In this document: positions 1-6,775 of the stretch, piece by piece
How positions within the stretch are numbered: position 1 is the stretch's first letter
Layout: each line of letters starts with the position of its first letter
Assembly (NCBI GenBank): GCA_024679565.1
Contig: JAIBDD010000007.1
Span: 1-64,000, forward strand
Length of the DNA: 64,000 nt
Direction: 5' to 3'
DNA from: Bacteroidota bacterium
GTDB lineage: Bacteria > Bacteroidota > Bacteroidia > NS11-12g > UBA9320
Made by a program: the position numbers and the translations under genes
The notes under the pieces: generated by a model
Database searches by the model: none
Told to the model about the DNA's origin: nothing
What the model saw: only the letters and a program-made list of their open reading frames with translations

Positions 1-96
1 TAAAAGTTCGATAACAATCTGATTCCCCCTACTGAAACAGAAAATTGGCCCATTTATCGAACCTAGTAAAAGTTCGATAACAGTCTGCTTCCCTCT
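1..96. repeat. 66-bp-period direct repeat with inverted core
   Basis: Bases 1-30 and 67-96 are near-identical (27 of 30 match). Between them, 54-62 (ttatcgaac) is the exact reverse complement of 72-80 and of 6-14. In the reading frame of the downstream secreted protein, the first copy holds a TGA at 20-22 where the second copy has TGC at 86-88. The arrangement resembles the menC insertion at 1761-1843, so it may be a template-switch event or an assembly or amplification artefact at the end of the available sequence. Confidence 0.75.
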
Positions 97-1254: not shown

Positions 1255-2333
1255 TTAAACGATCTCAGACAGATCCCATTTGGTTTGACCATAATGAATC
1301 GCGCGATTGATTATTTGAAGAGGGCCCTCAATGTTATTGGAATACAAACTGCCAGTGCCCAACCCTTGAGGCATAGTAGTTTCATATTGACTAACCCATT
1401 GTGCAATTGCATTTAATCCGATATTGGATTCTAAGGCAGATGTTGCCCACCAACCCAAACGGTGCTTTTCACATAACTCAATCCATTTGTCTGAAACCTT
1501 AAAACCTCCAATTAAATTCGGTTTTAAAATCAAATACTGAGGTTGGATATGGTTGACCAACGCTTCTCCTTTTTCATACACATCTATACCAATCAGTTCT
1601 TCGTCTAACGCGATATCGATTTTTGAGTCTCGGCACAAACGAGCCATATCGTCCCACTGATTTACGTGTATTGGCTGTTCGATGCTATGTATATCAAACC
1701 GTCTCAATTCCTTCAATTGTATTGCTGCTTCATCGGCTAAAAAGGCACCATTGGCATCTAAACGAATTTCTAGATTAAAGGCGTTATGTATTCGAACATT
1801 ACATAACGAATTTCTAGATTAAAGGCGTTATGTAATGTTCGAATCCGTTCCAAAAACCGACATTCTGCGTCAAAATCATGCTGTCCAACCTTAAACTTAA
1901 TACAGCTGTATCCTTGCCCAATTTTAGCAATGGCTTCATCATACATATCGTCTAAGTCGGCCATCCACACCAAACCATTTATTGGAATCGAATTACCTTG
2001 AACGAATGGTGTATCGAACGGTATTCGTTTGCCACCATTAACTAAGTCTTGCATAGCCGTTTCTAAACCAAAACGAATGGACGGGTATTTAGCTAAGTCG
2101 ATGTCTAGCAAAGATGTGTTTTCGCAGAGCTGCTTGCATACCTCGTTTAGTTTGATGTCGTAGTCATCAACATCATCGATGCTTAACTTGTATAAAGGTG
2201 CTGCCTCTCCAATGCCAGTAACACCATTTTCAGTTAATAGTACATATCGAATATCACGTGTAGTAAAAACATTTCTACTCGTCTTCGCGGCCTTAATAAA
2301 TTGAAGTTTATGATGAACTATGCGGTACTCCAT
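1255..2333 (-). pseudogene. menC: o-succinylbenzoate synthase, frameshifted
   Basis: The gene converts SHCHC to o-succinylbenzoate in menaquinone synthesis. The N-terminal half (1770-2333) carries the muconate-lactonizing/enolase capping region (TGIGEAAPLYKLS) and the catalytic KxK lysine region (SCIKFKVG). The C-terminal half (1255-about 1790) has the metal ligands and second lysine region (LRLDANGAF, IALDEELIG, ILKPNLIGGF) and ends TSALESNIGLNAIAQW. The halves lie in different frames. A 44-bp insertion at 1761-1804 separates them, and removing 44 bases restores one continuous frame of about 344 residues, normal for the family. The ATG at 2333 abuts the menA stop, so the two are translationally linked. 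If the insertion is real, menC is dead here. If it is an artefact, the gene is intact. Confidence 0.88.
1761..1843. repeat. 44-bp duplication with inverted spacer inside menC
   Basis: Bases 1761-1790 and 1805-1834 are an exact 30-bp direct repeat. The 14 bases between them (1791-1804), extended to 1808, are the exact reverse complement of 1826-1843 (18 bp, 17-nt loop). The net insertion is 44 bp, not a multiple of three, and it breaks menC. The pattern fits replication template switching across a small foldback, or a chimera from whole-genome amplification or assembly. Confidence 0.92.
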
Positions 2334-3236
2334 TTATAGAAGAATAAAAGCAACAGTGACGACCATCACAAGAGTGAGTAAAACATGAAACTTGAGCAGC
2401 GCATTATACTTTGATCTATTTTTTGTGGTATTGTCCAGTCCACGTAAACCAATCCAATGGCCAAGGAATAGTAAACCGACTAAGGCGATGAGCAAACCAT
2501 CATGAGCAGTGGAAACACGAACAAAGTAAACGATTAAACCAACGGCCGTTATATTCAAGATCAATTGATACCCCTCAGCTCTTTTTTTACCCAGCTTTGC
2601 AGCCAAAGTGATTTTGCCGTTTTTTCTGTCCCCTTCAATGTCTCTAATGTTGTTGATATTTAAAACACCCGTTGCCAGCAAACCAACACCAGACGCTGGC
2701 CAAATGGATTGGTAAAATCCATGATCAAACTTGAGCACATGAAGATAGTATGTGCCTAATACCGCAACCAACCCAAAGAAGACAAATACCGCCAAATCAC
2801 CCAAGGTGCTGTAGCCATAAGGGTTTTTACCCGCAGTATATTTAATGGCGGCTCCGATACTAACCAAGCCAATAATGAAAAATATCAGAAATTGTATTTC
2901 AATAGAATCCAGGGCCAACCACAGCAACATAATACCACAAACCAAAGTCAAGATTGACGTAATAACCAAGGCATTACACATCTGTATTTCCGAAAGAGCC
3001 CCACTAGCCAGTGCCCTGTCTGTACGTGTTTGGTCGTCGGTTCCTTTTTTAAAGTCACCGTAATCGTTAGCAAAGTTGGAGAGTACCTGTAAAAGTATTG
3101 CTGTTGTTAAGGCAAGAGTTGTTATCCGCCAATCGTGCTCGTAGAAAAAACTTGCCAAAACTGATCCAGTTGAAATGGACGCAATTGCTAACGGCAATGT
3201 TCTTAATCGGGCAGCTTGAACAAAAGCTTTAATCAT
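2334..3236 (-). CDS. menA: 1,4-dihydroxy-2-naphthoate polyprenyltransferase
   Basis: MenA attaches the polyprenyl tail to 1,4-dihydroxy-2-naphthoate, the membrane step of menaquinone synthesis. The 300-residue protein is almost entirely hydrophobic, with about eight or nine membrane segments. It has both aspartate-rich prenyl-diphosphate motifs of the UbiA superfamily: NFANDYGDFKKGTDD near residues 55-70 and NIRDIEGDRKNGK near 195-210. The second form is typical of MenA rather than UbiA. It lies 5 bp after kbl and runs directly into menC (stop codon abutting the menC ATG), so the three form one operon. A respiratory quinone based on menaquinone is expected, as usual for Bacteroidota. Confidence 0.93.
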   Translation of the reverse strand: MIKAFVQAARLRTLPLAIASISTGSVLASFFYEHDWRITTLALTTAILLQVLSNFANDYGDFKKGTDDQTRTDRALASGALSEIQMCNALVITSILTLVCGIMLLWLALDSIEIQFLIFFIIGLVSIGAAIKYTAGKNPYGYSTLGDLAVFVFFGLVAVLGTYYLHVLKFDHGFYQSIWPASGVGLLATGVLNINNIRDIEGDRKNGKITLAAKLGKKRAEGYQLILNITAVGLIVYFVRVSTAHDGLLIALVGLLFLGHWIGLRGLDNTTKNRSKYNALLKFHVLLTLVMVVTVAFILL

Positions 3237-4678: not shown

Positions 4679-6775
4679 ATGGCAGAAGAAAAGAATAAGA
4701 GACCCAAAATTGTTGTGAAAAAGGATTCCGGCAAACCTGAAAAAAAGGGCGGGCTTCCAAGATTTAGTATGAGTTGGATATACGTGTTAATCGCGATTAT
4801 CCTAATTACTATGTTGTACTTCCCGGGTGGCGGGGAAAACACCTTGCAAACTAGAGAGCTTCACGACATGCTTGAAAACAAGGAGGTCGCAAAAATTGAA
4901 GTTGTAAATGGCACAAAGGCATATATATACCTTACAGATAGTGCAAAAAAATCGGACAAGTACACAAAGGAAAAAAGAGACAAGGGTTTTAAGAAACCCA
5001 TGAATCCTAATGCTGCAGACTATACGATTAAGCAGATTCCTGATTATAAGTCATTCAAAGAAGACGTGGCTTTGGCACAGGAAGGTATTACCAAAGACAA
5101 GCATATCTTTATCGATTCCGTTGAGGAACAGGACTACAGCTTTATTACGAATTGGGTGCTGTTTTTCGCGCTGTTATTTGGCTTTTGGTATCTGATGATG
5201 CGCCGTATGGGCGGTCAAGCAGGTGGTGGAGCAGGACAAATATTTAATATTGGTAAGTCTAAGGCTCAGTTGTTCGACAAGGACACGAAGGTGAATGTAA
5301 CCTTCCAAGATGTGGCTGGTTTAGAAGAAGCGAAAGTTGAGGTAATGGAAATCGTTGATTTCTTAAAAAACCCAAAGAAATATACAGACCTAGGGGGTAA
5401 AATACCTAAAGGAGCATTGCTTGTAGGCCCTCCAGGAACTGGTAAAACGTTATTGGCCAAAGCGGTAGCTGGCGAAGCCAATGTCCCATTTTTCAGTTTG
5501 TCTGGTTCAGATTTCGTAGAAATGTTCGTGGGCGTTGGAGCTTCTAGAGTAAGAGACTTATTCAAGCAAGCAAAAGAGAAAGCGCCATGTATCATTTTTA
5601 TTGATGAAATTGATGCGATTGGCCGTGCAAGAGGGAAAAACGCGATGCAAGGTTCGAATGACGAACGTGAAAACACGTTAAACCAATTGCTAACTGAAAT
5701 GGATGGTTTTGGCACAGATTCGGGTGTTATCATTCTAGCGGCTACAAACCGTGTGGATGTGCTTGATTCAGCGTTGTTGAGAGCGGGTCGTTTTGATCGT
5801 CAGATTTATGCTGACATGCCAGATTTAAATGAACGTCGGGCTATTTTCGATGTGCACTTGAAGCCGTTAAAAATTGAAAAAAATCTTGATCGCGATTTCT
5901 TGGCAAGACAAACTCCTGGTTTTAGTGGAGCTGATATTGCCAATATGTGTAACGAAGCAGCCCTAATAGCTGCACGGAAAAACAAAAAGATTATTGAAAA
6001 ACAAGACTTCTTAGATGCTGTGGATCGTATTATAGGCGGTCTTGAAAAGAAGAATAAAATTATTACGCCAGAGGAGAAACGTTCGGTAGCGGTACACGAA
6101 GCCGGTCATGCAACGGTGAGTTGGTTATGCGAACACGCAAGTCCATTGGTTAAGGTTACTATCGTACCTCGCGGAAGAAGCTTAGGTGCGGCATGGTATT
6201 TACCTGAAGAAAGACAGATTACGACATCTGAGCAAATCCTTGATGAGATGTGTGCTGCGCTAGGTGGTCGTGCTGCAGAATTTGTGACATTTGGAAAGAT
6301 ATCGACTGGGGCGTTGAGTGATTTGGAAAAGGTTACCCGACAAGCCATGGCGATGGTTTCTATCTATGGCTTAAATGAAAAGGTTGGTAATATTTCATAT
6401 TACAATATGAACGAAGGTTTTACCAAACCTTTTAGTGAGCAAACCGCTGCGTTGATGGATGATGAAATCAAAAAGCTGACTGATGAGCAATATCAACGGG
6501 CAATTAAAATATTAACTGACAATAGAGATAAGCTTGATCAATTGGCCGACAAGCTGTTGGAGAAAGAAGTTATCTTCAAGGAGGATTTAGAATCGATTTT
6601 CGGAAAACGTCCTTGGGAGAAAGAGGAGCAAGTGATAGAGGTTAAAGAAGTAAAAACTGAAGAAAAAGAAGTAGAAGCAGAAGACAACGTTGAAGCGGAA
6701 GCGGATAATACTTCGGAGGAATCAACTCAAGACAATTCGTCTACAGAGGAAACGGAAACTACCACAGAAGAATAG
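4679..6775 (+). CDS. ftsH: ATP-dependent zinc metalloprotease FtsH
   Basis: FtsH is a membrane AAA+ protease that unfolds and degrades damaged membrane and short-lived cytosolic proteins. This 698-residue protein shows a first membrane segment near 32-48, a periplasmic domain, and a second segment near 157-174. The AAA module follows, with Walker A GPPGTGKT near 250, Walker B IIFIDEID and the arginine-finger region ([11 protein letters not shown]). The M41 peptidase zinc motif HEAGH is near 473. The C-terminus carries about 55 strongly acidic residues (Glu, Asp, Thr, Ser), longer than in the E. coli enzyme. It is divergent from kbl, has its own promoter box, and is followed by a strong terminator, so it is monocistronic. 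Confidence 0.97.

Follow-up and report, generated by a model that had tools for sequence, protein, structure and literature searches.

The menC gene of a Bacteroidota bacterium (assembly GCA_024679565.1) is interrupted by a 44-bp insertion in which a direct repeat, an inverted copy and a second direct repeat follow one another, and a single excursion of the replicating strand to a second template and back suffices to reproduce it from the uninterrupted gene. We slightly favour a mutation that occurred in a cell over an artefact, and we lean, with little more than even confidence, towards one recent replication error by template switching at a quasipalindrome or foldback. The window, i.e. the whole stretch of DNA that was analysed, comprises the first 64,000 nucleotides of the contig carrying menC. 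The relevant features are the following:

1255..1760, minus strand: 3' part of menC, in a different frame from the start codon; enolase C-terminal-like domain (PF13378, above cut-off)
1761..1790, no strand: direct repeat, copy 1, 30 bp
1770..2333, minus strand: 5' part of menC as found, an open frame of 187 aa (Pfam MenC_N PF21508, E 5.6e-9)
1790..1808, no strand: putative inverted copy from the switch, 19 bp, 14 bp of them between the direct repeats (four-point solution)
1790..1844, minus strand: transcript hairpin with a perfect stem of 19 bp, a 2x2 internal loop, 3 bp and a 7-nt loop
1805..1834, no strand: direct repeat, copy 2, 30 bp, same bases as copy 1
1826..1844, no strand: source arm, the exact reverse complement of 1790-1808
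2334..3236, minus strand: menA, intact, directly upstream of menC (TIGR00751, 221.9 bits, cut-off 102.15)

On the plus strand, the two direct repeats are identical at 30 of 30 positions with a spacing of 44 bp, which bears out the exact repeat reported by the first-pass annotation of this DNA. The 18-bp inverted match that it placed at 1791-1808 and 1826-1843 is also exact and stops one base short of the perfect arms, which are 19 bp long. The 19-base inverted copy consists of the 14 inter-repeat bases together with one base before and four bases after them. When imperfect pairing is included, the arms extend to 1790-1813 and 1821-1844, with 22 of 24 positions matched and two mismatches. Folding of a 96-nt RNA stretch including the hairpin gave -29.4 kcal/mol (z -5.4).

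As found, menC (1255-2333, minus strand) starts at position 2333 and stops after 187 codons, of which 176 are native and 11 are out of frame. When the flanks of the insertion are joined, a single frame of 1035 bp encoding 344 aa plus stop is obtained; thus, the earlier claim that the 44 bp shift menC and that their deletion restores the frame holds exactly. The joined frame shows full-length homology to o-succinylbenzoate synthase (MenC, PDB 2pge; E 2.5e-82), and its matches to the E. coli entries for this enzyme are weaker. The separate halves score below the whole-protein cut-offs of TIGR01927 and other menC models, and an intact relative (L014) likewise lies just under the TIGR01927 cut-off. 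The 3' part is homologous to the C-terminal half of the MenC proteins that relatives encode in a single ORF, and neither half carries a further lesion. The 187-aa product retains the KxK of KFKVG and lacks the DANG, EQP, DEE and LKP segments, in which proteins of the enolase superfamily carry the residues that bind the metal as well as the second lysine of catalysis. Since most catalytic residues sit in the 3' part and these segments are lost, the product should be inactive, and we infer a null allele of MenC.

The consequences for the cell depend on the rest of the pathway to menaquinone, also known as vitamin K2. MenF-like (contig C14), MenD (C36), MenB (C9) and MenA (window 2334-3236) proteins are encoded with scores above the curated cut-offs, and a MenE-like gene (C26) is present with a score below its cut-off. 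The first-pass annotation had named the search for a second menC as a check; none was found in the 2.65-Mb assembly, which is 91% complete, so that a copy could lie in the missing part. The assembly therefore contains no intact open MenC frame, as the only copy ends at the 187-aa stop. A candidate on contig C6 was rejected because it showed only enolase-like similarity, below the cut-off, within a 434-aa frame. Moreover, no member of the MqnA or MqnD families of the futalosine route was found in the assembly. The genome also contains two genes for heme-copper oxidase subunit I. With no second MenC, no MqnA or MqnD and the other Men genes retained, the gene content predicts that the allele should block menaquinone synthesis, in agreement with what had been proposed for the case that the insertion is real.

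Relatives reveal the state of the site before the insertion. Relatives that cover it, whose relationship ranges from genus to order level, carry both halves in one ORF without an insertion. The closest ones (L003 and L004), which are metagenome-assembled genomes (MAGs) of uncultured Bacteroidia, share 70-72% and 76-78% identity with the two menC halves without breaks, and nine residues lie between the matched halves, exactly as in the joined sequence. The frame comparison with relatives covers the genes near menC, and menA, a 396-aa ORF and a 698-aa ORF (4679-6775) each aligned as one frame. Judged from these alignments, the empty site is ancestral and the insertion derived. Because the rest of menC is without any other lesion, the insertion is recent or was made in vitro.

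The ancestral sequence in gene direction is ATTCGAACATTACATAACGCCTTTAATCTAGAAATTCGTTTAGATG. From this empty site, one four-point switch, out and back, reproduces the derived sequence exactly. Enumeration of the switch points yielded 10 equivalent solutions with an inverted copy of 14-19 nt, and the junctions are ambiguous (microhomology) by 4 bp where the strand switches out and by 1 bp where it switches back. According to the proposed mechanism, the growing strand, moving in gene direction, would have reached ...AAATTCGTT, and its 3' CGTT would have annealed to an AACG some 20 nt upstream, either on its own or on the sister strand. Then, 14-19 nt (ATGTAATGTTCGAAT) would have been copied backwards, up to ...GTTCGAAT, before the strand moved back to its original template and synthesis resumed at ACATAACG. 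The return may have been aided by the palindrome TTCGAA that ends the inverted copy; the new 3' end TTCGAAT could pair with TTCGAA of the template if three template bases were looped out. The outcome would be a very small inverted triplication that puts menC out of frame. The starting inverted repeat comprised 4 bp plus 3 bp past a 2-bp mismatch, and the derived sequence has gained a new stem of 19 bp. The fold-back priming match (CGTT/AACG) is 4 bp long, and it carries little weight by itself because a 4-bp match located 10-44 nt upstream occurs at 13% of genome positions; matches of at least 7 of 9 occur at 1.5%. The suggestion that a fork had switched templates across a foldback is thus strongly supported by the exact four-point solution and the empty sites of the relatives.

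The same architecture suggests how the insertion could be lost. Replication slippage between the 30-bp direct repeats that flank the hairpin should remove it precisely, and for this reason the allele is probably transient and revertible rather than a stable loss. A real allele of this form is expected to be unstable, in keeping with a recent origin.

Several described processes resemble the menC case, a very small instance of a class of mutation that is already known. Small inverted triplications (SIT; DUP/INV/DUP) are known from FEN1 mutants of yeast and from human cancers, with medians of 148/160/148 bp and 6-bp junctions, and SITs on plasmids in E. coli are precisely eliminated, for which slippage across the hairpin has been proposed (PMC13334657). 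The menC insertion shares with SITs the direct-inverted-direct order, the short spacer, junction microhomology, the capacity to form a hairpin and the expected precise loss by slippage. In contrast to SITs, it measures only 30/19/30 bp, has junction matches of 4 bp and 1 bp, and lies in a bacterial draft genome. Template switching at quasipalindromes is established in E. coli by the thyA hotspot and lacZ QP reporters (PMC7202029). In these events, too, a strand folds back within the molecule, copies the opposite strand and returns to the template; however, their classical outcome is that small mismatches in a quasipalindrome already present are corrected, whereas menC gained a new stem. Furthermore, four-point short-range template switches have been inferred in RNA genes and great-ape genomes (PMC8794818; PMC7954356) and proposed to contribute to RNA-gene evolution (PMC8794818). 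They also generate a new perfect hairpin in one event by inverted copying between four points, but the menC event disrupts a protein-coding gene.

To assess how unusual the pattern is, 2,645,629 of the 2,645,846 genome bases were scanned for direct repeats of at least 14 bp combined with an inverted match anchored in the spacer and 12 bp or longer, and a filter against self-palindromes was applied to the matches. The menC site was the sole direct-inverted-direct match that survived the filter; four further rows of the initial scan were discarded, as they were palindromes counted as their own partner. No such match occurred in two Markov-simulated genomes of the same size and composition (3-base context). 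With laxer thresholds, just a repeat cluster on contig C7 and one pair on C41 appeared beside the menC site. The pattern is far above chance, and its uniqueness in the genome counts against a systematic artefact.

The first-pass annotation had left the choice between a mutation and a chimera from amplification or assembly. This choice can be narrowed: each of the two new junctions is already unique at a word length of 12 and stays so for longer words, which makes an assembly-graph error from normal reads unlikely and implies that the junctions exist in at least some sequenced molecules. We consider it quite possible, at somewhat less than an even chance, that the same foldback switch happened in vitro during whole-genome amplification, end repair or library PCR, that a chimeric product was taken up into the consensus, possibly in a stretch of low depth, and that menC is intact in the organism. 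It is implausible that a population consensus has lost a single-copy gene of an otherwise retained pathway, and a null allele as consensus is surprising because the gene should be essential here. In addition, the genome is probably a MAG, as the assembly, which is fragmented into 54 contigs and 91% complete, gave no match to 16S, and its closest relatives are MAGs. A missing 16S gene is usual for short-read drafts. Contig C50, described below, has an end that resembles a foldback chimera. Fold-back or inverted chimeras are documented for multiple displacement amplification (MDA; PMC1855051) and for sonicated or enzyme-cut libraries (PMC10908179), and they resemble the menC case in that inverted copying is primed by a few complementary bases. 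However, MDA chimeras mainly consist of two segments joined once, in inverted orientation in 85% of cases (PMC1855051), and such foldback chimeras mostly arise by single switches without return and appear as low-frequency reads, whereas the menC event returned to the same template. Being a minority, chimeric reads would have had to outvote the normal reads inside a contig of 104,588 bases, although the insertion lies only 1.7 kb from the contig end. The C50 case also differs in being single-sided and located at a contig end. A literature search on metagenome artefacts found nothing. An event in the cell is favoured by the double switch that leads back to the template first used, the uniqueness of the pattern, its place within a contig and the presence of the junctions in sequenced molecules.

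Two further explanations accept the insertion as real and assign it a role. A common reversible on/off allele, by which natural populations would mix MenC+ and MenC- cells and precise deletion would restore menC, seems very unlikely. The direct repeats and the hairpin have the right form, and E. coli does lose such structures precisely. Small-colony variants that are auxotrophic for menaquinone provide a parallel. However, the insertion would seldom be re-made after its loss, which describes a one-way revertible mutation rather than a switch, and its absence from relatives gives no sign of selection. It is still harder to believe that ribosomes hop over the 44-nt insert between identical codons of the repeat copies, assisted by the hairpin, so that MenC is still made. 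A 44-nt hop between any matching codons would yield exactly the full protein, and the RNA hairpin is strong, but 11 sense codons precede the stop, no take-off stop adjoins a matched codon and relatives do not conserve the insert. Bypassing of the T4 gene 60 type is characterised by conservation of the insert, codons for take-off and landing, and a stop that adjoins, a combination not seen in menC. Moreover, a template switch accounts for the repeats without any function.

If the replication error in a cell is real, menC offers a base-resolved bacterial example of a direct-inverted-direct switch, far smaller than the published SITs and located in a core respiratory gene, and reversion of the allele is testable. 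If it is an artefact, it shows that foldback chimeras in public draft genomes can pass for gene loss, and that auxotrophy should not be deduced from one broken pathway gene in a draft of this kind.

Some contig ends of the assembly also show peculiar structures. The last 330 bases of contig C50 contain a perfect 35-bp foldback with a 14-nt loop (C50:19124-19451, L101). Through this foldback, the start of an FAD-oxidoreductase gene is fused to a frame similar to DUF7486, and the FAD-oxidoreductase ORF is thereby truncated. The DUF7486 fragment has a GC content of 52%, compared with 39.5% for the genome, and the family was detected in 1 of 147 other sampled Bacteroidota genomes; a tblastn search of the tail protein against plasmids gave no match. 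The end of C50 is probably chimeric and its tail may be foreign, in which case foldback chimeras did reach this assembly. Contig C6 (1-700, L055) was likewise considered as a foreign tail, which was rejected: read by eye, the contig apparently starts inside a 23S rRNA gene that is followed by 5S rRNA. At the start of the menC contig, units of 66 bp (window 1-88 and contig C3:19307-19425, L048) interrupt a gene of about 660 aa, which is one ORF in L003 and L004. The units are flanked by CTCTA on both sides, two of the three visible units contain an in-frame TGA, and the contig breaks at them. One unit recurs in genome G001 (L211) with 89% identity, and a piece of about 32 bp recurs in several relatives and resembles the end of a mobile element. 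Finally, 14-bp tandem repeats (GTTAATTGTTAATC; ATTGATAGTTGATC) lie at or near the contig ends at C8:6-90 and C44:45660-45790.
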